From NCBI GenBank assembly GCA_009842645.1, contig VYFB01000042.1:1-45065 (forward strand): a stretch of 45,065 nt of DNA, written 5' to 3'. Shown piece by piece: positions 6,290 through 26,054 of this stretch; the first letter of the stretch is position 1, and every line of letters starts with the position of its first letter. The translations under genes and the position numbers were made by a program. The notes below the pieces were generated by a model. It ran no database searches. It was not told the DNA's origin and was given only the letters and a program-made list of their open reading frames with translations. The DNA is from Nitrospira sp. SB0677_bin_15. GTDB lineage: Bacteria; Nitrospirota; Nitrospiria; Nitrospirales; UBA8639.

Positions 6290-7426
6290 ATGTACGATAT
6301 TAGAAAATATAACGAAGTAATAGAGGCATCTTCCCCGACCCCATTAAGCTGGGCTGACTCCTGTACGCATCAAGAGTGCTCATTACATCAACTGTCGCCT
6401 TACATAGGAAAATTGAAGAGTGTGATCGCAAAGGACCTCATCCTCAAGTACAGTCAACCCGGTCAGTTGGTGGTGGATATGTTTTGCGGGAGCGGTACCG
6501 TCCCACTTGAAGCCGCCCGTCTTGGTCGACGGATCTTTGCTTCTGATACGAGCCAATACGCGGTGACGCTGACCAAGGGCAAGTTGTACGCACCGACCAG
6601 AATCGAATCCGCACTTGCAGACATCGATCGTCTTCTCAAGCGCGTCGAATCGCTGCCTATGCCTGATCTCCGAAGTGTCCCCCGATGGGTTCGAGCTTTC
6701 TTTCATCCCCGTACATTGAAAGAAATCCTGCGTCTCAGTGAGTTTCTTAGAAACGAACAGCATTATTTCCTACTGGCATCCTTACTCGGCATCCTGCATC
6801 ATCAAAGGCCCGGATTTTTGTCTTATCCAAGCAGTCACCTCGTTCCCTATCTGCGTTCAAATAAGTTTCCAAGAGCAGCTTACCCTGAGCTTTACGAATA
6901 CCGTCCAGTCGCCGTACGCCTCAGAGCGAAAGTTGAACGCGCCCTGAAACGTCCACCGAGAAACTCTTGTCATGGCTTAGTCGATGATATTCGTAAGTCC
7001 GCAGTGGAATCTGTCAATCTTCCCGATGCCATTGATTGCGTCATCACGAGTCCACCCTACATGAACACCCTCGACTATGGGCGCGACAACCGGCTACGAC
7101 TCTGGTTTTTGGGTGAATCGCACATGGAGGCTATGGACCGTGCTCTCAGTGATCTTCTCGGTTTCACAAACGCAATAAAAGCACTTGCCAAACAATTACA
7201 ACAAAAAATGCGCCGGGGCGGTTATTGTATCTTTGTCATTGGGGAACAACTCATTCGAAAGAGAGATCGATTTCCCTCCGAAGAACTGATGAGGATTTTC
7301 GTAACGCACGCCCCAACATTTCGTCTATGTCGGGTTATGAGCGACGTTATTCCTGACGTTCGTCGCTCGCGCAAACGGCTCGCCGGCGTCAAACGAGAGC
7401 ATATTCTGGTATTCAGAAAGCACTGA
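6290..7426 (+). CDS. DNA methyltransferase, SPPY type
   Basis: Protein of 378 residues. A SAM-binding motif (VVDMFCGSGTVPLEAA, about 63-78) precedes the catalytic motif TSPPYMNTLDYGRDNR (about 251-266). The motif order is opposite to that of Mod, and SPPY suggests an N4-cytosine or N6-adenine methylase. The segment between them (about 100-245) would be the recognition region. The C-terminus (VRRSRKRLAGVKREHILVFRK) is a typical last strand of the methylase fold. It begins 54 bases after mod but belongs with the next two genes: its stop is 2 bases from the kinase start. In such a setting a methylase marks self DNA, as PglX does in BREX. That is an analogy, not a family assignment. Confidence 0.85.
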   Translation: MYDIRKYNEVIEASSPTPLSWADSCTHQECSLHQLSPYIGKLKSVIAKDLILKYSQPGQLVVDMFCGSGTVPLEAARLGRRIFASDTSQYAVTLTKGKLYAPTRIESALADIDRLLKRVESLPMPDLRSVPRWVRAFFHPRTLKEILRLSEFLRNEQHYFLLASLLGILHHQRPGFLSYPSSHLVPYLRSNKFPRAAYPELYEYRPVAVRLRAKVERALKRPPRNSCHGLVDDIRKSAVESVNLPDAIDCVITSPPYMNTLDYGRDNRLRLWFLGESHMEAMDRALSDLLGFTNAIKALAKQLQQKMRRGGYCIFVIGEQLIRKRDRFPSEELMRIFVTHAPTFRLCRVMSDVIPDVRRSRKRLAGVKREHILVFRKH

Positions 7427-7428
7427 GC

Positions 7429-9861: not shown

Positions 9862-10918
9862 CCATATTTCTGGAACCCCCTTGCTAAGACCGGATGAAAA
9901 ATTAAGTAAGGTAGACTGGCCGGATCTAAAAAAGATCGAGTTCCCTTCAATAGGAACTAGTGACTGTTTGTTGGTATGTGCCGGCTTTGAAGACCGTGCT
10001 ATCGAAACACTCCGACAAACCTGTAAGGCAGGGAGAACCGGTTTTTCGCTTGGCATGGTGACGTATCTTCCAGACTACGAAGAAAACAGAATCAAAGAAT
10101 TACGTGCAATCAGCGAAAAAGCTGACATCCTGACAACTGAATTTGTCTATGATCGAGCAAAGCCGACAGGTATGGGAGAAGAACTACAACGCTTCACTCA
10201 GCAATTCGATCGAGTGTTCATTGATATTTCCGGCATGTCACGCCTCCTGATCGTGCAAACATTGGTAGCACTCATCAGCGAAGAAAACGGCCAGATAAGC
10301 ATAATCTATGGTGAGGCAGAAGAATATCCACCATCTAAAGATACATTTGAACAAAACAACCAAGATGATAATGCCGGGCCTGCCCCGAGTTACCTGTCAT
10401 CCGGAATTTTTGAAATAGCAGCGACTCCCGAGTTGAGTTCTGTGTCCATGTTGGGTGAGCCGATCAGATTGATAGCGTTTCCATCATTTGCCCACGAACA
10501 GCTCACAAATTTGCTTCAAGAACTGCAACCTACTTATGCGGAATTTATTCATGGCGTACCACCAGATCCAAAGAACAAATGGCGAACAGAGGCAATCCGT
10601 AGGCGCAACCTTCTAACTCTGAATGAACTTCGGGGGAAAAAGGATCTTGAGGCGTCCACGCTTGACTACAGAGAGACGTTACATAAGTTGCTCGATATCT
10701 ATGCAGAACGTAGCATGTTTGATCGACTTGTGGTCGCCCCTACCGGCAGCAAGATGCAGGCTGTCGCCGTGGGGTTATTCCGTGCGGTGCTTCATGACGT
10801 ACAAATCGTTTACCCGACGCCACAAACTTTCACAGAACCCGGTAGATATACTTTAGGGCTTCGGCAACTGTACAAGGTTGATCTCCCAACCGAGGCAATA
10901 AAGGCCTGTGCCCGATAA
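9854..10918 (+). CDS. Unknown Rossmann-like protein of the methylase-kinase operon
   Basis: Protein of 354 residues from the ATG at 9854, which overlaps the kinase stop (ATGAATAG). A longer frame from GTG 9824 is less likely. Two alpha/beta parts are visible. The first has LLVCAGFEDRAIETL and FIDISGMSRLLIVQTLVAL (strand-helix units with a conserved D-I-S-G-x-x-R). The second, near the end, has RLVVAPTGSKMQAVAVGLF followed by VQIVYPTP and a final YTLGLRQLY. Such strand-loop-helix motifs with S/T-G/K resemble ligand-sensing Rossmann folds (CARF/SAVED-like), but I cannot assign a family. It may sense a nucleotide or act as a partner of the kinase-ATPase. An imperfect repeat hairpin lies downstream. 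Confidence 0.75.
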   Translation: MNSHISGTPLLRPDEKLSKVDWPDLKKIEFPSIGTSDCLLVCAGFEDRAIETLRQTCKAGRTGFSLGMVTYLPDYEENRIKELRAISEKADILTTEFVYDRAKPTGMGEELQRFTQQFDRVFIDISGMSRLLIVQTLVALISEENGQISIIYGEAEEYPPSKDTFEQNNQDDNAGPAPSYLSSGIFEIAATPELSSVSMLGEPIRLIAFPSFAHEQLTNLLQELQPTYAEFIHGVPPDPKNKWRTEAIRRRNLLTLNELRGKKDLEASTLDYRETLHKLLDIYAERSMFDRLVVAPTGSKMQAVAVGLFRAVLHDVQIVYPTPQTFTEPGRYTLGLRQLYKVDLPTEAIKACAR

Positions 10919-11043
10919 ACGCCGATTAGTCCTAACATGTTGTCGCGTTTCACGCGACGTTTGCCACAGACATTTTTCCATCTAGCCCCGAGCCAAGAAC
11001 GCATCAAAAATTTTCATACAGAGCAGATGAGTTGAAAGACAAC

Positions 11044-11076
11044 TCCAAATCTACCAATAAGACGCTTTTGAACGGT
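11044..11076 (+). pseudogene. Possible diverged remnant of the res 5' end
   Basis: The stretch AAATCTACCAATAAGACGC and the following TTTTGAACGG align without gaps to the beginning of res (AAACCTACCAACAAAACGC then CCTTGAGCAG). Nearly all differences are transitions. The reading frame is closed. It is too short and diverged to be certain, but two stronger copies of the same sequence lie at 11591 and 12505. Confidence 0.3.
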
Positions 11077-11082
11077 CCGACT

Positions 11083-11190
11083 TGTCATTCCCGACGGTAG
11101 TAATCGGGAATCCAGGGTCTTTTGTCTTCACGGACGCAGAACAAAGCAAAGAACCTGGATCCTCGATTACAAATGTCGAGGATGACAGAA
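11083..11190. repeat. Dispersed repeat, family B, paired inverted copies
   Basis: One unit (GTCATTCCCGACGGTAGTAA then TCGGGAATCCAGGGTC) is followed by an inverted unit (CCTGGATCCTCGATTAC then AAATGTCGAGGATGACAG). Together they form a large imperfect hairpin. It lies in the 350-base gene-free gap after the methylase-kinase operon and could act as a transcription end. Confidence 0.6.
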
Positions 11191-11269
11191 AGAGGTCTTT
11201 GTTATGACAATGGTTCTCAGACGTTCCTTTTCATCTCTTCTATAACTAGCAACCGGAGGTTTCTGAGCA

Positions 11270-11542
11270 ATGAAATTTAACGTAACGGTTGATCGAGACG
11301 AAGACGGGGTATGGATTGTTGAATGCCCTGCAATCCCAGGTTGTGTGAGTCAAGACAAAACAAAGGGTGAGGCTCTCGACAACATCAAGGAAGCTATTGT
11401 GCTGTGCCTTGAGGTACGTGCAAAAGAAGGGGAAATAGCTACGCTCTCCGTTCCTCATCACAAAGAAGTCGCCAAAGGAACCCCGAGAAGCCTGATCCGC
11501 TCTGCAGGTCTTACTGGCGACGAATTTTGTGCCGCCAAATAA
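11270..11542 (+). CDS. HicB-HicA chimera (fused antitoxin and toxin remnants)
   Basis: Protein of 90 residues. Residues 1-58 are a HicB antitoxin start: MKFNVTVDRDEDGVWIVECP, then AIPGCVSQDKTKGEALDNIK and EAIVLCLEVRAKEGE. From about residue 60 the sequence changes to what looks like the end of a HicA toxin: SVPHHKEVAKGTPRSLIRSA then GLTGDEF, matching the P-x-H-x-x-x-x-x-K-G-T-L-R-x-I-x-R-x-A-G-L-x-x-x-x-F ending of HicA. The catalytic start of HicA (with its histidine) and the DNA-binding end of HicB are absent. The simplest reading is an in-frame deletion that joined neighbouring hicB and hicA genes. A good ribosome site (GGAGG, 11255-11259) remains, so the fusion may still be made. Confidence 0.7.
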   Translation: MKFNVTVDRDEDGVWIVECPAIPGCVSQDKTKGEALDNIKEAIVLCLEVRAKEGEIATLSVPHHKEVAKGTPRSLIRSAGLTGDEFCAAK

Positions 11543-11590
11543 TGAATATGTCGAGCAGTCCCAAATCAAGTACGGGACAAAATACCCCTC

Positions 11591-11701
11591 GTGCAACTCA
11601 AAACCTACCAACAAAAAGCCCTTGAGCAGTTGGATCATTGGCTTGGGGTACTCAAGGCAACGCAGCTTTTCACGTTCTGCGGATTGCCATATGGCATGTA
11701 A
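11591..11701 (+). pseudogene. In-frame Res-Mod mini-chimera (remnant)
   Basis: From GTG 11591 a 36-codon frame reads VQLKTYQQKALEQLDHWLGV and then LKATQLFTFCGLPYGM. The first 22 residues copy the start of Res (MHLKTYQQNALEQLDRWLGA at 12699). The last part copies the end of Mod (ITFCGLPY at 6235), with 22 of 23 bases identical over TCACGTTCTGCGGATTGCC and the following RTATG. The order res-start then mod-end is the reverse of a normal mod-res operon. It is therefore a recombination scar rather than a simple internal deletion, unless it lost the middle of a res-mod tandem. Too short to be a working enzyme. Confidence 0.75.
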
Positions 11702-11791
11702 AGTGGCTAGAATCCGTGAAGTAAGAGGAGAGGTCTGGCCATGAACAGACAGAAATAGTGCGATACACTGACTCACAAAGAGAGAACGCAT

Positions 11792-12037
11792 ATGAAATCA
11801 ATTGACAAGAATATAGTTATAGCTTCGGACGGCAAACTCCCGCCGGCCTTCCGCGAGGCATTTGGCCGAAAGGCCCGTGTGATTGTTCATCTACAAGAAG
11901 ACGAACACAGGAAAACGCAAGGGGCAAACCATCCGATGGATCTCGCAGGCAAGATTCGGGCATTCCGAGACGTTGATGACCCTGTCACCTGGCAATCTGC
12001 CCTTCGAGATTCGTGGAAACGCGGTTTGGGCAAATGA
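11792..12037 (+). CDS. Antitoxin of a VapBC-type pair (AbrB/MazE-like start)
   Basis: Protein of 81 residues. The N-terminal part (IVIASDGKLPPAFREAFGRK then ARVIVHL) resembles a swapped-hairpin AbrB-type DNA-binding domain with the D-G-x-L-P-x-x-F pattern. The C-terminal part (DLAGKIRAFRDVDDPVTWQS) is the toxin-binding tail common in small VapC partners. The ribosome site AGAGAG precedes the ATG. Its last codons overlap the toxin start (ATGA at 12034-12037). It would neutralise the PIN toxin and repress its own operon. Confidence 0.8.
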   Translation: MKSIDKNIVIASDGKLPPAFREAFGRKARVIVHLQEDEHRKTQGANHPMDLAGKIRAFRDVDDPVTWQSALRDSWKRGLGK

Positions 12038-12405
12038 ACTCCGAGCGTTTTTTGGTCGATACCAACATTTTCATTCTGCTGTTCAATAATCGTCTGACAG
12101 ACCCCCTCCCCGATGGAGAAATCGCGTGCTCAGTCATTACTGAAATGGAATTGCTGTCTTCTCCGGCAATGACTTCACCGGAAGAATTGTTGATTCGTGA
12201 GATGCTTGCCAGCATGACTATCTATAGCATCGATCAGGATGTGAAAGAAGAAGCTATTCGCTTGCGACGAAAATCCAGGCTCAAGTTGCCGGACGCAATT
12301 ATTGCCGCCACTGCTATGTGCCACGATGCCGTTCTGGTGACAAACGACAATGAGATGCAAGACGTGCCGGACCTGAAAAGCCGGCAGTTAGCGGTCAGAC
12401 AATAG
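12034..12405 (+). CDS. vapC: PIN-domain ribonuclease toxin (VapC family)
   Basis: Protein of 123 residues from the ATG at 12034 that overlaps the antitoxin stop. All four acidic positions of the PIN active site are visible: D in FLVDTNIFILLF, E in SVITEMELLSS, D in LKLPDAIIAATA, and D in VLVTNDNEM. VapC toxins cut tRNA or rRNA when freed from their antitoxin. The intact motifs suggest a working module, unlike the broken toxin-antitoxin genes on both sides of it. Besides any role in defence it may help keep the island in place. Confidence 0.9.
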   Translation: MNSERFLVDTNIFILLFNNRLTDPLPDGEIACSVITEMELLSSPAMTSPEELLIREMLASMTIYSIDQDVKEEAIRLRRKSRLKLPDAIIAATAMCHDAVLVTNDNEMQDVPDLKSRQLAVRQ

Positions 12406-12504
12406 ACCTCAAGCGATGCATGGAAAAAATGAGGTAAAGGTCTTACCATAACGGCCTGTGACATACCCGGACGGGTCCTACGCTGTTTTAATCACTCAAG
12501 GTTT

Positions 12505-12654
12505 ATGCAACGCAAAACCTGCCAACAAGACGCCCCGCCGCTGACCAATGAACAAAAGTTTGAACTCGATCGGCGTTTGGATGCGTATGAAAAAGACAAG
12601 ATCAAGGGCCGAGAAGCCTCCGAGGTCGTGGCTTCCCTAAAAGAACGGTTATAA
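12505..12654 (+). pseudogene. Res-start / addiction-module antitoxin chimera (49 codons)
   Basis: The frame MQRKTCQQDAPPLTNEQKFE continues with LDRRLDAYEKDKIKGREASE and VVASLKERL. The first 10 codons copy the res start (AAAACCTGCCAACAAGACGC against AAAACCTACCAACAAAACGC at 12708). From PPLTNEQ onward it is the second half of a RelE-partner 'addiction module component' (TIGR02574-type), whose usual first half (a helix that ends LALVEALWDSL-like) is missing. It lies 45 bases before the true res start. Expression is uncertain. Confidence 0.65.
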
Positions 12655-12698
12655 ATTTCAACGAGACACAGTCATCTCACACCTTCCTTATTTCTTCA

Positions 12699-15230
12699 AT
12701 GCACTTGAAAACCTACCAACAAAACGCCCTTGAGCAGTTGGACCGCTGGCTTGGGGCGCTTAAAGAGGCGCATAAAGACGCGGCGGACGGCGTAGAGTTT
12801 TACGCGAAAAAGAAAAGACCTATTCCCGAAGAATTGAAAAACTATCCCCTCTCCGCTTGGAACAGCTTGAAAGAGCAGAACGTTCTCCCTGGCATTTCGG
12901 ACAACGGAACTCTTACAATCCCCGACTACATTTCCCGAACCGGAACGTCCGGTGCGCCCATCCCGCACGTCTGCTTGAAGGTGCCGACCGGGGGTGGGAA
13001 GACCCTTTTGGGCGTTACCGCGCTTGAGCGTATCAAGCAGGACGTGGGCTTCGTGTTGTGGATCGTGCCTACCAGGGCGATCTACGAACAGACGCTCAAG
13101 GCTTTCAGGACCCGCGAGCATCCGTACAGGCAGATGCTTGAGAGAATTTCCGGCGGCAAAGTCAAACTGTTGCAGAAGGACGACCGCTTCACCCGGCAGG
13201 ACGTCGAAAGCCGGCTCTGCATCATGACGCTGATGCTGCCGTCTGCCAACAGACAAAAAGGGAGGGACTTCCTCAAGATATTTCGTGACAGCGGGAGCTA
13301 CACTTCGTTTTTTCCAGAACAGGACGATCCAACCGCCAACCGCGCACTTTCAGAACGGCACCCGGACCTTGAGAAGAACAACACCGCCGGCTCGGCGAAG
13401 CACAGCCTGATCAACGTGCTGAAATTGATCCGCCCCACGGTCATTCTGGATGAAGCACACAAGGCATACGGGCCAAACGACAAGAACAATCGTGAGTTCG
13501 TCAAGTCCGTCAATCAACTCAATCCCCGCTTTGTGCTCGAACTGTCCGCCACGCCCAAAATCGGCATTAGCAACATCCTGGTCAACATATCGGGAACCGA
13601 GTTGCAGGCCGAGGAAATGATCAAGCTGCCGATAGAGATTCACAGCTTCGGCAACTCGGACTGGAAACACACGCTTGCCGAAACCCAGCGGAAATTACAG
13701 GAACTGGAAACCGAAGCGCAGAGACTGCAAACACGGGAAAACCGCTATATCCGTCCAATCGCCCTGGTCAGGGTCCAGCGGACGGGCGGAGAACAACGGG
13801 GCAGAGGAACCATCCATTCGGAGGACGTGCGGGAGCATCTGATCCAACAGCTTGCCGTGCCGCAAGACCGGATCAGGGTGCAATCGTCGGAACAGAAGGA
13901 ACTCACGGGCGAGGACCTGCTTGGCGAAACAAGCCCCGTCCGCTGGATTATCACCAAGGACGCCCTCAAGGAAGGCTGGGACTGCGCGTTTGCCTACGTG
14001 CTGGCTTTATTGGACGACACCACGGCAACCACGGCCATGACTCAGATGACCGGACGGATCATGCGACAGCCTCACGCGCGCAGAATTGAGCAAAGCGAAG
14101 CCCTGAACAGGTGCTATATTTATTGTTACAACACGAACGTGGGCGTAGCCGTCGAAAGGGTCAAGGCCGGGCTGGAAAACGAGGGGCTGACCGGGCTTGG
14201 CAATACCATTAGAGGCGCTGGTGAAGGAGACGCACCGCAACCACAAACCATCAAGCGCCGTCCAAAATATAAAAGACTTCAGATCTTTCTCCCGCAGGTT
14301 CTGCACGAAGAAGGGTACAGGTGGCGTCCGCTTGATTACGACCGCGACATCCTGGGAGCAATCAATTGGAGCGAAATCGACGTGGGCGAGGCGGTGAATC
14401 CGGACGACGATGACACGATTCGGGAGATCATCGCGACAGTTGACGTTCAGGGGGATAGACGTATCTTCGATGAGGCCCTTGAAACCGGCGAACGGTTGAG
14501 CCTTGATTATTTCGTCCGGCGGCTGACGGACGTAGTGCCCAACCCGTGGCAGGCTGCACGAATGACAGCGAACTTCCTCAAAAAGCATACGGGATACGAC
14601 GATTCAAAACTGTTGAATAACCGGATTTATCTCTCGGAGGTTTTGCGCCGGAGCATCAAGGAAGACCTGGACAAGAAAGCCGAGTCGGTTTTTCGCAGCA
14701 AGATCAAAAACGATGCGATCAGGTTTCACCTCGAGACCGACGAGAAGTTGGATTATGAACTGGAGAAATCGCTTGAGGTTTACGTGTCCAGTCAGGAAAG
14801 AGCGCTTCAGGGTGAACACGGACTGCCGATACAACAGAGTCTGTTCGATCCCGTGCATGAAAGCAACTTCAATGGACTCGAAAAGGATTTCGCGCTGTAT
14901 CTGGACAAGAGCAACGCTATCTCCTGGTGGCACAAGATCGCTGCAAAACAGCAGTATCATCTCCAAGGATGGAGACGGCAGCGGGTCTATCCGGATTTCG
15001 TCGCCTGTCAGCGGGGGGATGGAAGGCTTCTGATCCTCGAAACCAAAGGCATTCATCTGAAGGGGAACGAGGATACGAATTACAAGCAGCAACTGCTTGC
15101 AACCCTCGAAGCAGCATACAACAAAGCCGATGACAGGGGCGAAATGAGAGTCTGCGAACCACCCGCTGTTTTCAGGATGATGTTTGAGGATCGCTGGAAA
15201 GAACAGGCCAACGCGCTTGTTGCGGAATAG
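12699..15230 (+). CDS. res: Type III restriction enzyme subunit (Res)
   Basis: Protein of 843 residues. Superfamily 2 helicase motifs: Walker A VPTGGGKTLLG (about 94-104), motif II ILDEAHKAYG (about 249-258), motif III ELSATPKIG, and motif VI in MTQMTGRIMRQPHARR (about 448-463). The C-terminal nuclease of PD-(D/E)xK type is intact: YPDFVACQRGDGRLLILETK (about 763-782) has PD and ExK. With Mod it would cut after translocating between head-to-head unmethylated sites. Both ends of this gene are duplicated nearby: 5' copies at 11591 and 12505, and the last 100 bases at 21107-21206. The ATG at 12699 is chosen by family length and the MHLKTYQQ start. Confidence 0.95.
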   Translation: MHLKTYQQNALEQLDRWLGALKEAHKDAADGVEFYAKKKRPIPEELKNYPLSAWNSLKEQNVLPGISDNGTLTIPDYISRTGTSGAPIPHVCLKVPTGGGKTLLGVTALERIKQDVGFVLWIVPTRAIYEQTLKAFRTREHPYRQMLERISGGKVKLLQKDDRFTRQDVESRLCIMTLMLPSANRQKGRDFLKIFRDSGSYTSFFPEQDDPTANRALSERHPDLEKNNTAGSAKHSLINVLKLIRPTVILDEAHKAYGPNDKNNREFVKSVNQLNPRFVLELSATPKIGISNILVNISGTELQAEEMIKLPIEIHSFGNSDWKHTLAETQRKLQELETEAQRLQTRENRYIRPIALVRVQRTGGEQRGRGTIHSEDVREHLIQQLAVPQDRIRVQSSEQKELTGEDLLGETSPVRWIITKDALKEGWDCAFAYVLALLDDTTATTAMTQMTGRIMRQPHARRIEQSEALNRCYIYCYNTNVGVAVERVKAGLENEGLTGLGNTIRGAGEGDAPQPQTIKRRPKYKRLQIFLPQVLHEEGYRWRPLDYDRDILGAINWSEIDVGEAVNPDDDDTIREIIATVDVQGDRRIFDEALETGERLSLDYFVRRLTDVVPNPWQAARMTANFLKKHTGYDDSKLLNNRIYLSEVLRRSIKEDLDKKAESVFRSKIKNDAIRFHLETDEKLDYELEKSLEVYVSSQERALQGEHGLPIQQSLFDPVHESNFNGLEKDFALYLDKSNAISWWHKIAAKQQYHLQGWRRQRVYPDFVACQRGDGRLLILETKGIHLKGNEDTNYKQQLLATLEAAYNKADDRGEMRVCEPPAVFRMMFEDRWKEQANALVAE
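15131..15230 (+). repeat. 100-bp direct repeat, left copy (res 3' end)
   Basis: The last 100 bases of res, ending exactly at its TAG stop, recur at 21107-21206 with two differences. The two copies bracket the FGE / sulfotransferase / P450 block. Sequence similarity stops at the stop codon on the right and near TGACAGGG on the left. Confidence 0.95.
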
Positions 15231-15246
15231 CGCAGAACGCACTCGG

Positions 15247-16440
15247 TTACTTTAGGTCTCGGGCAACGCGGAAGCCCGAAACGCTTGTTGCGCTTTTGGC
15301 AAGCCTTGGGGTGCGTATCGCCGATCGATTCCCCTCCGCCCCGTAGAACCAGCCTCCCCCTCGCGCCACGCGCAAGAAGCACAAGCCGGACTCCCATGCG
15401 CTTCCATCCGTGGGACCTCCCGAGTAATCGGAGTTAAAGCAATCCTGCGTCCATTCGCCGGCGTTTCCGATCATGTCATGCAGCCCGAACGAGTTCGGTT
15501 GAAAGGAGCCCGCGGGCGCGGTCCCCGCGAACCCGTCATCGCAGGGAATGATCGCGTCTAATTGAAAATCGAAGTTATGGAAGGCGTTGTCCGTTTTGTC
15601 ATACACGCTGGCGAACTCGCAGAAATCATCCTCCGGTCTCCAGTAGTTGACGGTCGTCGACCCGGCGCGCGCCGCATATTCCCATTCCGCTTCGCTCAGC
15701 AGCCGATAGCGCTTTCCCGTCAGGTCGGATAGCCATTGCGTGTACAATTGGGCGGCGTGCCAGCTAATATTGAGTACGGGACGCCGTCCCCGGCCGAAGC
15801 CCTCATCGTCCGGTTTCAGTCCACCGCATCCGTCCATGCGAACGCAGCTTTCCCATTCCTCGTGGGTCACCTCGAAAACCCCGACCGCGAATGGCGCCGG
15901 AATCGTCACCTCCCGCTGCGGACCCTCGCTCGAATGGCGGTGGGGTTCCGATTCCGGAGATCCCATGATGAATGTCCCGGCCGGGATCACAGTCATTCTG
16001 GGCGCGACGTCGCAATCCTGAAAAACGCCGCCCGGCTTGATCTCTCCGGCTGATTTCGGATCGCATTCGGCGACCCATTCAGCATCGCTTAACGATACAT
16101 ATCCTTGAATGGCTGGCCCCTCCCGCTGTGTCAAATCCACGAGATACCAGGCCTCTAATTCCCGCAAGACCCGAAGCGGGACACCCGCGGGAACCGTCGC
16201 GACCAGTCTGCTATTCGGATCCGCGGCTTCTCTCACCGGCCCCTGGCGCGCGACCATCCGCAACTCCAACGCATCCGCCGTCCGGGGCGCGGCGAAGTCG
16301 GCAAACAGGGCCACGACGAAGACCAGGAAGGCGGCCCCTCCTGGGAAACGACCATGGCCACGGTCTTCCCCTGCTTCATGGGTTGACGCCCCGGCCTTGG
16401 TGGCCGGAAGCCCTTGCAACGGAAAAGCCTCGAAATCCAT
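15247..16440 (-). CDS. SH3-domain + FGE-sulfatase (SUMF1) fold protein 1
   Basis: Protein of 397 residues. A hydrophobic stretch (AAFLVFVVALFADFAA, about 35-50) acts as signal or anchor. A bacterial SH3 domain follows (GPVREAADPNSRLVATVPAG then VPLRVL), then a FGE-sulfatase/SUMF1 domain (VIPAGTFIMGSPESE ... RYRLLSEAEWEYAARAGSTT ... MIGNAGEWTQDCFNSDYSGG ... RVARGGGWF ... GFRVARD). The cysteines that make formylglycine in true FGE (C-x-x-x-x-C after the RGGSW motif) are absent: here GGGWFYGAEGNRSAIRTPR. It is therefore probably a structural or other oxidative member rather than a sulfatase activator. It starts 3 bases after the stop of the next, paralogous gene, with which it forms an operon read leftward. 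Confidence 0.85.
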   Translation of the reverse strand: MDFEAFPLQGLPATKAGASTHEAGEDRGHGRFPGGAAFLVFVVALFADFAAPRTADALELRMVARQGPVREAADPNSRLVATVPAGVPLRVLRELEAWYLVDLTQREGPAIQGYVSLSDAEWVAECDPKSAGEIKPGGVFQDCDVAPRMTVIPAGTFIMGSPESEPHRHSSEGPQREVTIPAPFAVGVFEVTHEEWESCVRMDGCGGLKPDDEGFGRGRRPVLNISWHAAQLYTQWLSDLTGKRYRLLSEAEWEYAARAGSTTVNYWRPEDDFCEFASVYDKTDNAFHNFDFQLDAIIPCDDGFAGTAPAGSFQPNSFGLHDMIGNAGEWTQDCFNSDYSGGPTDGSAWESGLCFLRVARGGGWFYGAEGNRSAIRTPRLAKSATSVSGFRVARDLK

Positions 16441-16443
16441 CGT

Positions 16444-17679
16444 TCAATCCAACCGTCGGGCGACGCGCAGCCCCAGACTGCTGTAGCTGCTGTTCAGGGT
16501 TCTTTTGGTGCGCGCGGCCGTCCGATTTTTCTGAAGACTATAGGCCCATGCGCCACCGCGCGAGATGCGGAAGCGACAATCGCCTGTCTCCCAGGCGCTC
16601 CCGTCCGTCGGGCCGCCGAGATAATCGGCGTTGTAGCAATCCTGCGTCCATTCGCTGACGTTTCCGATCATGTCGTACAGACCGAACGCGTTCGGCGAGA
16701 AGGATCCGACGACGGCACCGGCCGGATATCCGTCCGAGCACGGAATGGTCGAGCCGACCGCGTCCACAACGTCGGGAACCAGCTTCAGTGCCGTCAGATC
16801 AAGACCGTTCAGATGCTCGCAATACGACGAGTCCGACCCGGAGCCGGGCCGGGGCGCCGTCGTGCCGGCCCGGGCGGCATACTCCCATTCCGCTTCGCTC
16901 AGCAACCTGTAACGTTTGCCGGTTATCGCGGACAGCCATCGCACGTATTTCCGCGCCTGCGGCCAGTCTATGTTCATCACGGGATAGTTCCCGCGTCCAA
17001 GACCGAGATCGTGCGGCTCTTTCGGACCGCATCCCCCCGTCCTCTGGCAGGCGTCCCATTGCTCGAAGGTTACCTCATAAACGCCCGCCGCGAACGGAGT
17101 GGTGATCTCGACCTTTCGCTGGGGGCCCTCATCGGGCAACCGGTATTCTTCCGAGGCCGGCGACCCCATCATGAAGCTTCCCGCGGGCACGACGATCATT
17201 TCCGGCGCCGCCGCGCAATCCCGAAACCGGTCTCCCGGTCCCAGGTCAATCATTTCCGCAGGAACGCAGTTAGCGGCCCATTCGACATCGCTAACGGATA
17301 CATAGCCTTTCCGAAATGAAGGCCCGTCCGCATCCTCGCGCGGTTCAACGAGATACCAGGCCCGCTTTTCCGAAAGGGGGCGAAGGGTCGTGCCTGCCGG
17401 CACGGTCGAGACGATCGCGCCGTTCGGGTTCGGAACCTCCCTTATCGCACCCGGGTCGGCGCGCATGCGCAGGACGATCATGTTCGAACTCAGCGGATCT
17501 GGTTGTCGCAACCGGAACGTAGATTGCAGAACGAAAAGTTCCTTGATCGTGAACTTGGACAGAAAACTGGCGGTCTGATGGATCGACGAAAAATTTGTCA
17601 GAATACCATACGCTAACAGAGCCCCGGCCACGGTGCCGACGATTCCCACGATCCGCCTCCAGGACTTGAGGACAACCAT
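16444..17679 (-). CDS. SH3-domain + FGE-sulfatase (SUMF1) fold protein 2
   Basis: Protein of 411 residues, a paralogue of the gene it precedes, with the same layout: N-terminal membrane helix (IVGIVGTVAGALLAYGILT, about 10-28), SH3 region (DPGAIREVPNPNGAIVSTVP then AGTTLRPL) and FGE-type domain (VPAGSFMMGSPASEEYRLPD ... RYRLLSEAEWEYAARAGTTA ... MIGNVSEWTQDCYNADYLGG ... ISRGGAWAYSLQKNRTAART). The FGE active-site cysteines are again missing. Two adjacent diverged copies suggest a tandem duplication followed by specialisation. The gene is divergent from the sulfotransferase gene, with a 166-base shared upstream region. Confidence 0.85.
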   Translation of the reverse strand: MVVLKSWRRIVGIVGTVAGALLAYGILTNFSSIHQTASFLSKFTIKELFVLQSTFRLRQPDPLSSNMIVLRMRADPGAIREVPNPNGAIVSTVPAGTTLRPLSEKRAWYLVEPREDADGPSFRKGYVSVSDVEWAANCVPAEMIDLGPGDRFRDCAAAPEMIVVPAGSFMMGSPASEEYRLPDEGPQRKVEITTPFAAGVYEVTFEQWDACQRTGGCGPKEPHDLGLGRGNYPVMNIDWPQARKYVRWLSAITGKRYRLLSEAEWEYAARAGTTAPRPGSGSDSSYCEHLNGLDLTALKLVPDVVDAVGSTIPCSDGYPAGAVVGSFSPNAFGLYDMIGNVSEWTQDCYNADYLGGPTDGSAWETGDCRFRISRGGAWAYSLQKNRTAARTKRTLNSSYSSLGLRVARRLD

Positions 17680-17845: not shown

Positions 17846-18982
17846 ATGAGCAAGTGGATGCGTTGGACACTGGCAACTCGGAGTAGTATAGTCATTTCTA
17901 CCTTCTCGACGGCGGCAACTTCCGCCATGGACTCAGCCCGGAGTTGGTTCGTGAACGAAATTCCTCCTGTATTCGTATTCAGCACCGGACGGTGCGGGTC
18001 CACGATGATCTCGGAGATGCTGAACATGCATCCGGATATCCTCAGCATATCCGAGTTTTTTTCGGCTCTCGGTCCGAACGCATTCGCCGGGAAGAAGATT
18101 ACAGGCGAGTTCATGTGGCGCCTGTACAGTGAGCCCGGAAAGAGGTTGGCTATTGTCAGACGGGAATCCTTTAGCGAATTGCTTTATCCCTTCGACGACC
18201 CCGGAGCGCGCTTCGACGCCGCCACGCTGCCGCCCATCATGGCAGTATCGCTGCCTCATCTCACGAATCGCTACGAAGAACTCTACGATGAGATAGAGAA
18301 GATCGTTCGCGCACAACCCAAGGCGTTCCCCAACGACCATTACCGGACACTGTTCAACTGGCTGGGGGAACGCTTCGAAAGGAAATTGTGGGTGGAGCGT
18401 CACGGCGGCTCCCTCCTGATGGCTTCCCGGCTGCTGCGCCACTTTCCCGAAGCGCGGGTCGTTCATATGTTCCGGGACGGGCGCGAAACGACATTGTCGA
18501 TGAGTAACCACCCGCCCTTCCGAGTTATGCTTGCGCTGATGCGGAGAGCCAGACGCTGGGGCATCGACGCCTACCGATTACTGGAAAGGCTCGAACGCAG
18601 TGACCGGTTAACCAGCATGATAGACACGTTGCAATGGCTGCTGTCGGATATTGACAGCCTGCTATCGGAGCCCCCGACGCTACCCGAGGCTGGCGAATTC
18701 TGGAGCAACATGATAGAAACGGGCTACCGGGTGTTCGGCCACTTCGGGCCAGACCGGCTGCTTGAGTTGCGATTTGAGGAAATGCAAGAAAATCCGGAAG
18801 GCGAGGCGCGCCGCCTCATCGAATTCATCTCGCCGGAGTTGGAGAGCGAGGCTTGGATTTCTGAAGTGGCTCGGCTTCCCCGCCGGACCCCGTCAAAATT
18901 CGCGCGGCTCGCCCCCGATGCACAGCGTGCCGTTACCGAGGCGTGCCGTCCGGGACTGGAGCGACTCGGTTATGCGGTCTGA
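17846..18982 (+). CDS. PAPS-dependent sulfotransferase family protein
   Basis: Protein of 378 residues. The 5'-phosphosulfate loop VFVFSTGRCGSTMISEML (about 43-60) and the 3'-phosphate motif ARVVHMFRDGRETTLSMSNH (about 205-224) define the sulfotransferase fold. The remainder (helical, with the acidic RLLELRFEEMQENPEGE segment) matches the Sulfotransfer_3 type that sulfates small molecules or glycans. No signal peptide is convincing, so the protein is probably cytoplasmic. The gene is followed after 73 bases by the GPP34-P450 fusion and is divergent from the FGE-like pair. A later ATG at 17930 is an alternative start. Confidence 0.88.
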   Translation: MSKWMRWTLATRSSIVISTFSTAATSAMDSARSWFVNEIPPVFVFSTGRCGSTMISEMLNMHPDILSISEFFSALGPNAFAGKKITGEFMWRLYSEPGKRLAIVRRESFSELLYPFDDPGARFDAATLPPIMAVSLPHLTNRYEELYDEIEKIVRAQPKAFPNDHYRTLFNWLGERFERKLWVERHGGSLLMASRLLRHFPEARVVHMFRDGRETTLSMSNHPPFRVMLALMRRARRWGIDAYRLLERLERSDRLTSMIDTLQWLLSDIDSLLSEPPTLPEAGEFWSNMIETGYRVFGHFGPDRLLELRFEEMQENPEGEARRLIEFISPELESEAWISEVARLPRRTPSKFARLAPDAQRAVTEACRPGLERLGYAV

Positions 18983-19055: not shown

Positions 19056-21095
19056 ATGATGAAGGCGGAAATATTGGTTGACCGTCCCTTGACGCTTGCC
19101 GAAGAACTTCATGTCCTGTTGCTGGACCGGCAGGGGGGCGGCCTCATCGATGCCGACGACCGCAAGATCAGATATGCCTTTGCCGGCGCGGGGCTGATGA
19201 ATCTGGCGAGGGAACGGCGCATCGATACCGACCTCGAAAATCTGACGGTGCTCGATTCGACCCCGCTGGGAGACGACATCCTCGATCCCTTGCTCGCGGC
19301 TATTTCAGGGGGCGAAAATACCGACATCGTGTACTGGATCGAGCGTTTCTCCGGTCCGGAAATCGCCAACCGGATACGGCGTCGCGCTGGCGAGCGCCTG
19401 ATCCACAGGGGCATCTTCAACATCGACCCGGGCGGGACGCTCTTTCTTGACAAGCAGGTGAGCTTGACACGCCGCTACCCCGGCATCCCCTTGCCCGAGG
19501 GTCAGGATGTGGTCCTGCGGGTGATGAACGTTATCTTCAGCGAAGACATTCCGAGTCCGGATGAGGCTATGCTCGTCGCGTTGGTCGATGTCTGCGGGAT
19601 CTTCGGGCACATTCTCGCGAAGCCGGAGCTTGCGGAGAGGCGCGACCGCATCGCCTTGGTAAGCCGTCTGGATCTCATCGGACTATCGGTTCGTAACGCG
19701 ATTCTCGCCGTCCGGGAGCCGGATGCCAAAGACCGGACATTACACAGGATTTTCCAGGAGTCGGCTGCCGGGGGCCGCCGCAAATGTCCTCCTATGGCAC
19801 CTATGGGGCTCCCCCTGATCGGACACTCGCTACGCTTGCGACCGTTTCCGACCCAAACACTTGCCGACTATTACCGCTCCCTGGGGCCGATCTTCAGAAT
19901 CCGCGACCTGGCGAGCACATTGACTGTTCTGGCAGGGCCGGAGGCCAATCTTTTCCTTCAGAAACGCGGGCGGGCGTTGCTTCGCAGTCATAAGGCCTAC
20001 ACGCCGCTTTTCGAGGGAATGGACGCCCAGCGCATCATCCTGAGCATGGACGGTGAGGAGCATTTCAGCCTCCGCAGGGCGATCTCTTCCGGCTTCTCGC
20101 GCGACCGGTACCTGAACAGGCTGCCGGAGATCCGGGATATCATTCTCAGCAAGTTTCCGGAGAACGGAAATGCGGTTGCCATCGACACCTTCAGTCACCT
20201 TACGGCCAAGTCGATCGGACTGGCGTGTACCAATTATGTCCTGTCCAACAGTGAGGTCAAGGACATGGACTTCTTCCTGCGTCGCCTGATCGCGGTGACG
20301 GTGCTGCGCGCGCTGCCGAAATTCATGATGTACACCCCTCGCATGAAGCGGGCGAAGGCCGGGTTTTTCGATATTTTCACCAACATACTGCGCGCACGGC
20401 TGGATGACGGAACCGACCAAGGCAAAGAGGACGTGGTGGATGCGATGCTCGAACTGCACCGGTCCAACCCTCAATTTTTGCCCGAACAAGAACTCAGGGT
20501 ATCTTGTCTGGGGCCGATCTTTTCCGGCCTGCACACCACCGCCAGCACCGGAACCTTTGCCCTGTATCTGTTACTCAAACATCCCGGGTGCTTGGAACGG
20601 GTTCGGGTCGAGGCAGATGAGCTTTATGCGAACGGGGGGCCAACCCCCGAGAAAATGAAAGCCTTGGACGTTACCCGACGAACCGTGTTCGAAACCCTGC
20701 GGATATACAATCCCTTCGGGTTCCTTTTCCGGCACGCGGTCAATAGCTTTGATTTCGGCGGCTACACCATACCGGCCGGTACCGCGCTTTTCCTGCCGAC
20801 TTCCGTGCCGCACTACTGCCCGGAATTTTTCCGGGAGCCGGACCGCTTCGACATCGATCGCTACTTGCCGGAACGGGCCGAACACAGTCAGCCCGGCGTT
20901 TATATGCCCTTCGGCTTCGGTACCCACCGCTGCCTGGGCAGCACCATCGCCGAAAACCATCTGATGTTCACGCTCGCGACGATCCTGCATCACCGGAATG
21001 TCAGCATGGACCCTCCCGATTATAAGATGAAGATGATTTTCGACGGCGTACCCGCGCCGACAAGAAAGTTAAGGCTCAAACTCACACCAAGGTAA
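19056..21095 (+). CDS. GPP34 (GOLPH3-like) - cytochrome P450 fusion
   Basis: Protein of 679 residues. Residues about 8-215 form a GPP34 domain: LTLAEELHVLLLDRQGGGLI, AFAGAGLMNLARERRI, LTVLDSTPLGDDILDPLL and a domain-ending ALVDVCGIFGHILAKPE. GPP34 is the fold of GOLPH3/Vps74, a phosphoinositide- and membrane-binding protein, and is found in some bacteria. Residues about 245-679 form a P450: I-helix FSGLHTTAST (about 489-498, with His where most P450s have an acid, as in CYP51), ExxR as FETLR (E546-R549), and the haem loop PFGFGTHRCLG (Cys626). No redox domain is attached. The N-terminal domain could hold the enzyme at the membrane. The ATG at 19056 follows AAAGAGG. A second ATG is next to it. 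Confidence 0.88.
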   Translation: MMKAEILVDRPLTLAEELHVLLLDRQGGGLIDADDRKIRYAFAGAGLMNLARERRIDTDLENLTVLDSTPLGDDILDPLLAAISGGENTDIVYWIERFSGPEIANRIRRRAGERLIHRGIFNIDPGGTLFLDKQVSLTRRYPGIPLPEGQDVVLRVMNVIFSEDIPSPDEAMLVALVDVCGIFGHILAKPELAERRDRIALVSRLDLIGLSVRNAILAVREPDAKDRTLHRIFQESAAGGRRKCPPMAPMGLPLIGHSLRLRPFPTQTLADYYRSLGPIFRIRDLASTLTVLAGPEANLFLQKRGRALLRSHKAYTPLFEGMDAQRIILSMDGEEHFSLRRAISSGFSRDRYLNRLPEIRDIILSKFPENGNAVAIDTFSHLTAKSIGLACTNYVLSNSEVKDMDFFLRRLIAVTVLRALPKFMMYTPRMKRAKAGFFDIFTNILRARLDDGTDQGKEDVVDAMLELHRSNPQFLPEQELRVSCLGPIFSGLHTTASTGTFALYLLLKHPGCLERVRVEADELYANGGPTPEKMKALDVTRRTVFETLRIYNPFGFLFRHAVNSFDFGGYTIPAGTALFLPTSVPHYCPEFFREPDRFDIDRYLPERAEHSQPGVYMPFGFGTHRCLGSTIAENHLMFTLATILHHRNVSMDPPDYKMKMIFDGVPAPTRKLRLKLTPR

Positions 21096-21907: not shown

Positions 21908-23059
21908 ATGAATTGGGACATCGTGATGCAATCCTCTCTCATACGAAAGATCAACAAAACACTACGAATCCAAGGATATGACATATCCAAAGGAGTGTTC
22001 TCACTCATGAGGGCAGATCGAGAGAATTTGCGACGAACCCACGCGTTGGCCAAAAAAGAGCGGATTGCCGGACAGGTTGCCTTTATCCGCGATCACAGAT
22101 CATTTATCAATGACCATATGATTGATGGAAGAGATTTGAACATTGAGAATATTTCACCCAAACTGATTCCGGTCACTGCAACATCGCACTGGGGAAAACT
22201 CTTTCGCTGGTGGAATTTTGTCTGGTGGAGCATGCCGTATGAGTCGGCGTATGGTCGCCAGATGCGATATATTGTTTGGGATCAACATCATGAAGCCGTC
22301 ATCGGACTTATCGGCTTACACAGCCCGATTTTATCTTGGGCTCCGCGCGACCGCTATTTAGGCATTACCCCAGCAGATCGTGATTATTGGGTCAACCAGT
22401 CGTTAAGTGCGCAACGGATCGGGGCCGTGCCACCGTACAATGGCGTCTTGGGTGGGAAGTTGGTCGCCATGCTCATGGCCAGTGACACCCTGCGTAAAGA
22501 TTTTCACAGAAAATACTCGAAGAAAACCACTGTACTGCAAAAGCGAGAATTGCCTGCCAATCTCTTATTTATCACCACTACCGGCGCGTTCGGGAAAAGC
22601 AGTCTCTACACGAGATTAAAATTTGGCGAGGAGTGGCTGGCCTCGTTTATCGGGTACTCAAACGGCTCAGGGTCATTCCACGTTCCAGATGCAGTCTACG
22701 AACAAATATTGTTGGCGTTGAGCAGGGACGGCGTGAACGTCAAGCGAGGATACGGCAGCGGTCCTTCGCGCAAGATGCGTCTGATTCGGGAGGGAATGGA
22801 TGCACTAGGCTATCAAAATGGCGTCTTTCACGGAGTAAAGCGTGCCATTTATTTGTTTCGGTTTGCACGGAACCTGGATAGGTTGATTGCAGGTACAGCC
22901 CGACGACCGCTCTGGCATCATCGTCAAGAACGCGACCTGACTGACTACTGGAAAGACCGCTGGATTTTGCCGAGAATCGCCATGCGAGAAGAGTGCTTGC
23001 GACAATTTAGCAAGACACAATTCCTCGACGAGCAACTCAAGGAGATTGATTGCTCATGA
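21908..23059 (+). CDS. DruA-like protein (DUF4338, Druantia)
   Basis: Protein of 383 residues. The central segment GKLFRWWNFVWWSMPYESAY ... YIVWDQHHEAVIGLIGLHSP and RIGAVPPYNGVLGGKLVAML is characteristic of DUF4338, the DruA protein of Druantia anti-phage systems, whose biochemical role is unknown. The region LLFITTTGAFGKSSLY resembles a conserved core strand-loop of that family. It overlaps the next gene by 4 bases (ATGA). The usual large DruE helicase is not found in this window; instead, NurA and HerA follow. Start at ATG 21908 is chosen by length. ATG 21926 is also possible. Confidence 0.85.
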   Translation: MNWDIVMQSSLIRKINKTLRIQGYDISKGVFSLMRADRENLRRTHALAKKERIAGQVAFIRDHRSFINDHMIDGRDLNIENISPKLIPVTATSHWGKLFRWWNFVWWSMPYESAYGRQMRYIVWDQHHEAVIGLIGLHSPILSWAPRDRYLGITPADRDYWVNQSLSAQRIGAVPPYNGVLGGKLVAMLMASDTLRKDFHRKYSKKTTVLQKRELPANLLFITTTGAFGKSSLYTRLKFGEEWLASFIGYSNGSGSFHVPDAVYEQILLALSRDGVNVKRGYGSGPSRKMRLIREGMDALGYQNGVFHGVKRAIYLFRFARNLDRLIAGTARRPLWHHRQERDLTDYWKDRWILPRIAMREECLRQFSKTQFLDEQLKEIDCS

Positions 23060-24267
23060 GTACAGGCGAGCCAACTCCATATGCCCATTTACCGGAGGAT
23101 TTGATTCAACAAATGCTCGAAGCCGTTCCACGCACGGTGGAAAAGATGGAAACGATGCTTGGTGCGCAGGATGAACCCATCCAAGCAGGAATCAGTGCGC
23201 TTCGAAACAAAGACATCATATGCAAATTGAAACCGCAGACTCCTTCCATCAATTCACTCATGGCTGCTGATGGCGGACAGGTCATAGAAAGAATGAGCGG
23301 CATGGATTTATTGCTCGCCGTTGCCGTCGGAGTTGAAGGATTACACAATAAAGAAGGCGACGGTTGGAAGGCCAACTGCAATCAATACGAACAATGGCAA
23401 ACAGTCATGCCGCACGACGAAGCGACTCCCCGTCTATGTCAAGGAGCCATGTTTCTTATGGAAATCGGTGTGCTTGCCGGCGCAACGCATGAAATAAGAA
23501 TCATGGATGGCGCACATTTTACCCCGTTACTTAAAATCAACAGCATGCTGTCAGCCAAGGAAGAACATGCCGGCGAGGAGTATGTTGCCGCCTTACGCGG
23601 TTTTCTGCGCGAAACTTACAGAAAAATCATCCCCGATATTCCTGACATCATATCCAATGCGCTAAACGACCCGGGCATTATAGCAATGGCAAAATACAGT
23701 TCGTCTCGTGATGTTCTTGATTCTCATGTCAGGAGTGCGGGCGTTAATGGCATTACCCTGGACGACAAAACCTTTTTTGCTCTTGGTTTGGATTCGGACG
23801 AATACACAAGACCGATGTCAGTAGGCCAAAGCGAAGAAGAAAGAAGGAAAATATGGAATGACTTACATATTATCTGCAACCTGGAAATTAAAGAAAAAGA
23901 AGACCTCAACAAGCATCTTGAAGAGGCCATTAATCCCATACGCACGAAGAATGGAAAAGAACAAAAAGAATCGGACCTGTTCTTTACCTACTTCAAGCCG
24001 TATGCCAACGGCCCGGCATACAGAATTGAATGCAAGCGTTCTCTTGCCACAGATGCCGAACGTTTCGAAAGTGTACTGGCCGGCATAAAGCAACAAATCA
24101 TCTATCCTGACATCCGAGAACCATTTCCTCAGTATTTGGCAGATTTGATGGCAAAAAGTGTTTCCGGTGGTTTGCACGCTCTGCAGGACGCCGTGCGCCT
24201 TTCACTTGTCCGTGAATCGACGAGTACGGATCGCGTTGACTTATTGTTTTCCTATCGGAGTCGCTAA
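23056..24267 (+). CDS. NurA-domain nuclease
   Basis: Protein of 403 residues from the ATG overlapping the druA stop. The NurA pattern is visible: first metal-binding aspartate in SLMAADGGQV (about residue 72), then EIRIMDGAHFTPLLKINS with a second D-G, the SSSRDVLDSH segment matching the family's conserved SK-S/R part, and late YFKPYANGPAYRIECKR. NurA is a 5'-3' nuclease that works with the HerA motor to resect DNA ends in archaea, and NurA-HerA pairs also occur in bacterial phage defence. The next gene is HerA, joined by a TAATG overlap. Assignment is by motif reading only. Confidence 0.72.
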   Translation: MSTGEPTPYAHLPEDLIQQMLEAVPRTVEKMETMLGAQDEPIQAGISALRNKDIICKLKPQTPSINSLMAADGGQVIERMSGMDLLLAVAVGVEGLHNKEGDGWKANCNQYEQWQTVMPHDEATPRLCQGAMFLMEIGVLAGATHEIRIMDGAHFTPLLKINSMLSAKEEHAGEEYVAALRGFLRETYRKIIPDIPDIISNALNDPGIIAMAKYSSSRDVLDSHVRSAGVNGITLDDKTFFALGLDSDEYTRPMSVGQSEEERRKIWNDLHIICNLEIKEKEDLNKHLEEAINPIRTKNGKEQKESDLFFTYFKPYANGPAYRIECKRSLATDAERFESVLAGIKQQIIYPDIREPFPQYLADLMAKSVSGGLHALQDAVRLSLVRESTSTDRVDLLFSYRSR

Positions 24268-26054
24268 TGAGCCAAACCAACCAACCCCTATACGATCTGA
24301 TCAGTAAAATTGATGCGGCAACGCTGGGCGTCGTGAGTTCTCCGAGCACGACACTGGAAATTGCCTTAGATATTCGCAAGGCGAGCGAGAGCAGGCGCGT
24401 GTTAGGGCAAATGGTTTTTGCGCAATTGGAAGAAGATGGCCGCAAAATTTTGTCTCTCGGGCAGATCGTTGAAGTGGAAACCAAAAATCGTTGGCACGAA
24501 GATCCGTCCTTTAAGGGTGTCATAAAGCATCATGGGAAACTTCCTCATTTAAGCGGTGTCGCGGACAACCGAATGGCAAAAATAAGCGTGCAATCAAGTT
24601 TTGATGTTACCAATCAAGAGCCGGAGATTTATTTGCTGGGAATGTCTCCTTCAACTGGAATCCCTGTGGAAATTGTGAACAACGATTTAATGGATTTACT
24701 TGTGCAACATCACAAAAAAGCCATTACTTATCTCGGCAAAGTCTATGGGACCGATGTTGACTTGCCGATGTGGTTTAAACATTTCGGACGGGATGAAGAT
24801 ATTCCGGCCTTGGGTGCAAAAGACGCCTACCATATAGGCGTTTTCGGCAAAACAGGTTCAGGGAAAAGCGTGACTTCCGCTTTGATGTTGCTGGCCTACG
24901 CCAAAAACAAAAAACACATGAACATTCTGGTCTTAGATCCGCAGGGTCAATTTTACAAAGATCGTGATTTGTTACCTGGTGAAGAAGAAAAGCTGCTGGA
25001 TGAAATACAGGAAACCGGCATGAACGTTAAAAAATTCAAACTGATTGAAGATGTGTCTCTTCCTGAAACACATGTTGAGCTTTTCGCGGAACTGCTGGCA
25101 AACAATGGTTTTATTCAAGAAGCGTTTGGACCGTTTTATACGGATGAAAAGGCTGAACTCATGGGAGCGTCCATCGCTTCCTATATAGATGGTCTGGCGA
25201 ACAACCCGAACTTTAAGCTGAGCAATGTCGATCCAATTCCGTTACTTTTGCAGATGACCAAACGCTTTGTAACGATCAAGGCAGGCGAGAAGGAATTCTC
25301 AAAATACATAAAGGATGTCTATGGCACAAAGAATACGCAAGAGAGGCTGCTTGGTGCGATTCAAAAAGTACGCGATGCATTGGAACGTGGACAATCACCA
25401 GCTTACTTGAAAACCTGGAAACAGGCATTGGCCATGTTTTCGGAAAATCGCAAAACAAATATTGCGAAGATTTGTGAAATCATCACAGGAAAAAACCGGG
25501 GCAATTTTGTAGTGCTGGATTTGAGTCCTTCCGAAGGGGAAATCGAAAACGACAATTTGCAGGCGTTGTTTTTACGCCTCATTGAAAAAGGCATCGTTGA
25601 ATCCGGAGGAAATTTGTACGCCAAGGGGGACAGTGCCAACTGTCTGATTGTCATGGATGAGGCCCACCGCTTTATTTCAAGCCATTCCCCGGACTCTCGA
25701 ATCAAAGATCTGACCCGTGAGATCGTAGACGCCGTTCGCACGACGCGCAAATACGGCATCGGCCATATGTTCATCACGCAATCCCTGGAATCCTTGGACG
25801 ATGAAATCATCAAACAAATGCGAATCTTTGCGTTTGGACATGGATTGACCATGGGTTCGGAATTACGCAAGGTGAAAGAAATCATCAACAATCAAGCAGC
25901 CGTTAACCTTTATGCGTCATTTATCGATCCTAGCAACAGCGGAAAATTTCCCTTCATGTTTTTTGGGCCGGTATCGCCTTTTTCGGCAACAGGTTCCCCA
26001 CTGTTCGTTGAGATTTACAGCAACTACCAGGACTACTGTATCAAGAATCAATAG
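24267..26054 (+). CDS. herA: HerA-type hexameric ATPase (DUF87)
   Basis: Protein of 595 residues. An N-terminal HAS-barrel-like region (about 1-160) precedes the ATPase core: Walker A GKTGSGKS (about 194-201), the following NILVLDPQGQFYKD strand, Walker B CLIVMDEAHRF (about 456-466), the sensor segment GIGHMFITQSLESLDD (about 498-513) and an arginine-finger region. This is the FtsK/HerA translocase superfamily. It would thread DNA into NurA. Start overlaps the NurA stop by one base (TAATG). DruA-NurA-HerA read as one operon of three coupled genes. Confidence 0.88.
   Translation: MSQTNQPLYDLISKIDAATLGVVSSPSTTLEIALDIRKASESRRVLGQMVFAQLEEDGRKILSLGQIVEVETKNRWHEDPSFKGVIKHHGKLPHLSGVADNRMAKISVQSSFDVTNQEPEIYLLGMSPSTGIPVEIVNNDLMDLLVQHHKKAITYLGKVYGTDVDLPMWFKHFGRDEDIPALGAKDAYHIGVFGKTGSGKSVTSALMLLAYAKNKKHMNILVLDPQGQFYKDRDLLPGEEEKLLDEIQETGMNVKKFKLIEDVSLPETHVELFAELLANNGFIQEAFGPFYTDEKAELMGASIASYIDGLANNPNFKLSNVDPIPLLLQMTKRFVTIKAGEKEFSKYIKDVYGTKNTQERLLGAIQKVRDALERGQSPAYLKTWKQALAMFSENRKTNIAKICEIITGKNRGNFVVLDLSPSEGEIENDNLQALFLRLIEKGIVESGGNLYAKGDSANCLIVMDEAHRFISSHSPDSRIKDLTREIVDAVRTTRKYGIGHMFITQSLESLDDEIIKQMRIFAFGHGLTMGSELRKVKEIINNQAAVNLYASFIDPSNSGKFPFMFFGPVSPFSATGSPLFVEIYSNYQDYCIKNQ

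Follow-up and report, generated by a model that had tools for sequence, protein, structure and literature searches.

A GPP34-cytochrome P450 fusion of Nitrospira belongs to a family linked to sterol genes and, in its own clade, to sulfation genes

Bacteria have no Golgi; in eukaryotes, GOLPH3 binds enzymes by their cytosolic tails. Its PI4P pocket comprises W81, R90, R171 and R174, and hydrophobic residues of its hairpin were reported in the monomer-monomer interface (PMC4414131). In Mycobacterium tuberculosis, an operon of a P450 and a sulfotransferase was described for a sulfated quinone: CYP128 and Stf3 make sulfomenaquinone (PMC6469627). That sponge symbionts synthesize sterols is known from their gene clusters, according to passages on the steroid gene clusters of Ircinia symbionts (PMC9531527) and on bacterial sterol methyltransferases (PMC10070321), and the origin of sulfated sponge steroids has been reviewed (PMC8145587). 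In the literature on GPP34 or Golgi phosphoprotein together with P450, we found no description of a fusion of the two. Here, we describe such a fusion, encoded in a window of 45,065 nucleotides (the whole stretch of DNA analysed, contig VYFB01000042.1 of Nitrospira sp. SB0677_bin_15), and its relatives in other genomes.

The fused protein and its family

The GPP34-P450 gene (window:19056-21095, + strand) is a single frame of 679 amino acids with no internal stop, within an open frame of 690 amino acids. Residues 14-218 (19095-19709, +) match the Pfam profile of GPP34, PF05719, with an E value of 1.3e-23 and 84.6 bits against a curated cut-off of 29.1, and the match covers positions 1-200 of the 201 in the profile. 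This agrees with the sequence-only reading, which had placed GPP34 at residues 1-215. Residues 1-235, modelled by AlphaFold2 with a mean pLDDT of 89.9, had GOLPH3 and Vps74 as their only significant Foldseek matches in the PDB (E < 0.001, probability 1.00, TM 0.59-0.67), and a profile built from 23 fusion-type GPP34 domains likewise found GOLPH3 (3kn1, E 4.9e-13) and Vps74. Thus, by profile and by fold, the N-terminus is a member of the GPP34/GOLPH3 family. In the full-length model, a linker of low confidence near residues 224-241 separates two folded domains and falls within the interdomain segment of about residues 219-247 (19710-19796, +); pLDDT was below 50 at residues 224-226, 228-241 and 254-263. 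The P450 domain (residues 248-673; 19797-21074, +) matches PF00067 over its full length (E 2.4e-55, 188.6 bits) and carries the ExxR pair E546/R549, an I-helix SGLHTT with His493-Thr494 and the haem motif FGFGTHRCLG with Cys626, the histidine and cysteine being those named in the earlier reading. Cys626, E546 and R549 were invariant in 53 of the 53 fusions first aligned, and likewise in a set of 48 aligned fusions. The P450 half of the model matched P450 structures generally, CYP51 included.

The window fusion is not a one-off. We found at least 66 GPP34-P450 fusions, a second one of which lies in the same genome (contig C11). Full-length orthologues, 71-73% identical to the window copy, occur at L016-L019 in MAGs named Gammaproteobacteria (two), Gemmatimonadetes and Rhodothermales; the phyla of the Gemmatimonadetes and Rhodothermales MAGs and one gammaproteobacterial order yielded further fusions with both domains confirmed. 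When 105 GPP34 domains were placed in a tree, a branch with SH-aLRT 96 had all 66 fused domains to one side, and the clades of the P450 tree largely matched those of the GPP34 tree. This single clade is consistent with one fusion event; such an event, followed by descent and by transfer between phyla, would be the simplest reading. That the fusion is instead an assembly or frameshift artefact of two genes might be suggested by one relative, G004, in which the two halves occupy different frames, but its probability is close to negligible, given that dozens of independent assemblies from several phyla contain the fusion at full length and that the tree indicates one origin. Indeed, since the same full-length architecture recurs in many independent genomes and the window frame is intact, a missed stop or frameshift is ruled out and the fusion is genuine.

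Within the genus, 11 of 14 genomes hold the GPP34 and P450 pair, and a window-type copy is present in 1 of the 14. Among the genomes of the sampled phylum, no GPP34 domain above the cut-off was found outside the fusion's genus; as for the fusion itself, and none of 72,556 plasmids had a match that covered 80% of it. In G004, the pair is split over two frames at L037:3214-5264 and the oxidosqualene cyclase (OSC) contains an in-frame TAG, pointing to decay or to an assembly error. GPP34 was also seen in other long frames of 603-707 amino acids without P450 similarity (L178:1-2121, L115:9027-10838), which are possibly other GPP34 fusions.

The fusions are of two classes by their I-helix. In the first class, an acid or a histidine is followed by threonine, as in SGLHTT (window clade), AGLHTA (its sisters) and VGLDTT (another clade). 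In the second class, the I-helix lacks the threonine and is one residue shorter (ASVYLGDAF, AGHYLGS). Examples of the latter are L032:10312-12342 and L112:7442-9472, where the acid-alcohol pair is absent (ASMYLGDAL, AGHYLGS), the haem cysteine and ExxR are intact and sterol genes adjoin. To judge by these residues, the second-class P450s may catalyse something other than an ordinary monooxygenation.

The I-helix histidine of the window P450 had been called CYP51-like. This residue does stand before the threonine as in CYP51 (sterol 14alpha-demethylase), with which the window P450 shares the P450 fold and an occurrence in genomes with sterol-synthesis genes. The likeness did not extend to overall similarity: the window P450 scored about 108 bits against the CYP51 of M. 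capsulatus, compared to 344 bits for a separate P450 of the same genome, and it formed a separate deep branch in the P450 tree. The window P450 is thus not a CYP51. Since the separate P450 is the CYP51 of this genome by similarity, the fusion P450s presumably act otherwise.

Sterol genes and sulfation genes near the fusions

In the genome of the window, CYP51 sits apart from the window inside a complete sterol-synthesis cluster (contig C98) with a squalene-epoxidase/oxidosqualene-cyclase fusion protein, an ERG24-type C14-reductase, SdmA-like and SdmB-like proteins and an RND transporter. The squalene epoxidase and OSC form one protein of 1141 amino acids (L033:118-3543), and similar long frames (about 1130-1220 amino acids) account for most OSC matches of the genus and occur in several other phyla. 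The second GPP34-P450, on C11, adjoins two sterol methyltransferases. We observed sterol-type genes (KshA-like Rieske, C24-methyltransferase, SdmA/B, flavin oxidase, OSC or CYP51) beside 41 of 46 second-class fusions, 10 of 10 inside the genus and 31 of 36 outside it, compared to none of 20 control regions (12-18 kb) taken from the same contigs; the Fisher p of 7e-11 for 31/36 against 0/20 treats related genomes as independent and overstates the significance. The nearest solved relative of the KshA-like Rieske neighbours is 3-ketosteroid 9alpha-hydroxylase. The closest stand-alone P450 relative that we found, WP_227398350.1, is also encoded in a sterol cluster, on a plasmid of Planktothrix agardhii; it matched the entire P450 half of the fusion profile with 391 bits and differs from the fusions in having no GPP34 domain. 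This cluster (L228, plasmid p2, record 38799-62266) contains OSC, CYP51, three further P450 frames (one of them truncated), three KshA-like Rieske proteins and ERG24-like and SdmB-like proteins. A 187-amino-acid ORF beside the Planktothrix P450 was considered as a split GPP34 and proved to be a truncated P450 paralogue.

At the level of whole genomes, OSC (>700 bits) was present in 10 of the 11 fusion-bearing genomes of the genus, compared to none of the 3 without a fusion; the exception is G010. In the phylum of G042, OSC below E 1e-120 was found in only 4 of 395 genomes, all four of which have fusions. OSC is nevertheless not a strict companion of the fusion, since most fusion genomes of that phylum, and G010, are without it. 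With OSC so rare there, most of these genomes would use acquired sterols or something else. Likewise, G504, G544 and G685, which carry sister fusions of the window clade, had no OSC below E 1e-120, so sterols would be taken up in these genomes, or the substrate would be different.

The surroundings of the window clade are of another kind. A PAPS-type sulfotransferase (Sulfotransfer_3, PF13469, 67.4 bits; 17846-18982, +) ends 73 bp before the fusion on the same strand and is its probable operon partner. Orthologues 69-77% identical to it lie directly upstream of the orthologous fusions in L016, L018 and L019, preceded in L018 by a CysN/APS-kinase gene; in G042, one of the five window-type genomes, the sulfotransferase is missing. 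Elsewhere in the group, the gene order was cysD, fusion, sulfotransferase and cysNC in L123, cysD, fusion and two sulfotransferases in L119, and in L121 and L137 the fusion ends within or right next to a sulfotransferase frame. Sulfation genes were thus near 8 of 10 members, three of them also with PAPS-synthesis genes, compared to none of 58 other fusions (Fisher p 6e-9, a value made too small by shared ancestry). These ten comprise the window clade, its AGLHT sisters and L137, which was grouped by its I-helix and neighbours and whose position in the two trees is unsure. Between the sulfotransferase of the sisters and that of the window, identity is only 23%, over part of the length, and two different, unrelated sulfotransferase types therefore accompany one P450 group. 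P-values aside, the variation of both gene order and sulfotransferase type argues for a functional link between the P450 and sulfation. The family of the sulfotransferase is not sterol specific, since paralogues occur in G009, a genome with neither a fusion nor OSC nor sterol methyltransferase. In related genomes, such paralogues also adjoin other P450-like frames (L208, L209, L211).

On the other strand of the window, two SUMF1/FGE-like paralogues are encoded upstream of the sulfotransferase gene (15247-16440 and, with an SH3 domain, 16444-17679, both -). FGE has its active-site cysteine pair in the C-terminal RGG...R segment. Neither paralogue has a cysteine in this segment, and FGE activity, i.e., sulfatase activation, was rejected for both. 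A SUMF1-like SH3 pair without the FGE cysteines accompanies the module in two lineages (window 15247-17679, -; L018:10141-12687, -). Farther upstream (window 4601-15230) are a type III methyltransferase, a restriction enzyme and CARF-like and kinase proteins, and downstream (21908-26054) are DruA and a HerA-like ATPase, which places the sulfation module between defence-type genes. The tetranucleotide profile of the window contig correlated at 0.72 with those of the sterol contigs of its genome; regions of the genus gave 0.69-0.82 and some foreign regions reach 0.65, and misbinning of the window contig is conceivable.

A proposed working of the fusion and its partner

Our best explanation is that a P450 of a sterol-tied family hydroxylates a membrane steroid or triterpenoid, that its partner sulfates the product and that GPP34 docks the enzyme; as a whole, we consider this account about evenly poised between right and wrong. 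Its observed basis is the fusion, the common ancestry of its family and two linkages, of the family to sterol genes and of the window clade to sulfation genes. The P450, with haem Cys626 and His493-Thr494, would hydroxylate the membrane-borne substrate, and the sulfotransferase encoded upstream would then move sulfate from PAPS to that hydroxyl or to a neighbouring one, so that the product would be a sulfated, more water-soluble lipid. No redox partner was found nearby.

Hydroxylation followed by sulfation of a lipid had been proposed from the sequence. As a type of pathway this is well supported by the conserved sulfotransferase in three other lineages and by the PAPS genes, and the lipid nature of the substrate holds in outline, because sterol genes are linked to the fusion family at large. 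No sterol gene was found within the regions read around the 10 window-clade members. Sterol genes being absent from the immediate neighbourhood, a steroid substrate for this clade is deduced from the family background, where it would be the likeliest one. The same gene pair might instead act on a non-steroid lipid such as a quinone, a hopanoid or a polyprenoid. Fusions of the window clade without sterol neighbours and sister genomes without OSC would fit this, and hopene-cyclase-like matches occur throughout the genus. The sister-clade sulfotransferase resembles the solved sulfotransferases 2zq5 and 2z6v, which we take to be mycobacterial. The operon of CYP128 and Stf3 is a described precedent (PMC6469627). 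On the other hand, all five window-type genomes hold OSC (a partial match in G042) and sterol methyltransferase, although OSC is rare in the G042 phylum and the four besides that of the window bear the labels of three different phyla. Moreover, the other main branch of the P450 family and the stand-alone relative are tied to sterol genes. We thus regard a non-steroid lipid as possible but doubtful, and a sterol substrate as likely.

As for GPP34, it would serve as a docking module for a P450 that would otherwise be soluble, holding it close to its substrate at the membrane surface. The pocket residues W81, R90, R171 and R174 of GOLPH3 correspond to A33, A43, N105 and R108 in the window protein, R174 alone being kept, and the commonest residues of the fusion family at these positions are V, A, D/E and I/R. 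The position of R171 was acidic in 40 of 48 aligned fusions, and small or hydrophobic residues stood at that of R90. With three of the four pocket residues lost, the domain is not a PI4P effector of the GOLPH3 type. Docking would probably involve a hydrophobic face or the hairpin rather than PI4P, and since the PI4P-binding residues are not conserved, we put lipid tethering forward as a hypothesis. A hydrophobic residue was present at the position of GOLPH3 L195 in 48 of 48 aligned fusions; as the GOLPH3 hairpin was described as a monomer-monomer interface, this conservation fits membrane insertion and dimerization alike. The domain could thus be a protein-docking or dimerization part rather than a membrane or lipid module, bringing the P450 to a redox partner, to the sulfotransferase or to other enzymes of the pathway. 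The loss of the pocket, the hairpin interface and, in eukaryotes, the binding of enzyme tails by GOLPH3 are in favor of this alternative; the L195 position speaks as well for the membrane, and we find the alternative rather unlikely. Taken together, the probable role of GPP34 is to bring the P450 to the membrane or into a complex.

Implications and comparison with known systems

The later tailoring steps of symbiont sterols are less clear than their synthesis, and the fusions are concrete candidates for them: a P450 family with an unexpected Golgi-type domain that has sterol genes on one side and sulfation genes on the other. Most of the genomes compared are MAGs. The window organism is presumably a sponge symbiont, as suggested by isolate names of its relatives (e.g., RHO3) and by passages of PMC9531527. 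With this gene pair, the origin of sulfated sponge steroids becomes directly testable. That symbiotic bacteria make hydroxylated, sulfated sponge steroids by a GPP34-tethered P450 and its paired sulfotransferase, with GPP34 as a bacterial membrane module for steroid pathways, is a speculation that we hold to be improbable; no description of GPP34 in such a role was found in the literature. The fusions also allow the function of the GPP34 fold without its PI4P pocket to be studied in bacteria.

Compared to GOLPH3/Vps74 (PF05719), residues 14-218 of the fusion share the sequence profile and the predicted fold, and they differ in being joined to an enzyme and in not keeping W81, R90 and R171. We know of no GPP34 domain in the CYP128-Stf3 operon. 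The sponge-symbiont systems resemble the genomes studied here in their ERG24-CYP51-ERG7 clusters and sterol methyltransferases and in their spread over many phyla, including Nitrospiria, Gammaproteobacteria, Gemmatimonadetes and Rhodothermia, as far as the passages found of PMC9531527 and PMC10070321 go; these passages do not mention a GPP34-P450 fusion, and the word "sulfotransferase" does not occur in PMC9531527, nor "P450" in PMC10070321. Finally, the CYP128-Stf3 operon of M. tuberculosis (PMC6469627) differs from the proposed system in its quinone substrate and resembles it in combining, in one operon, hydroxylation by a P450 and subsequent action of a PAPS sulfotransferase on a membrane lipid.
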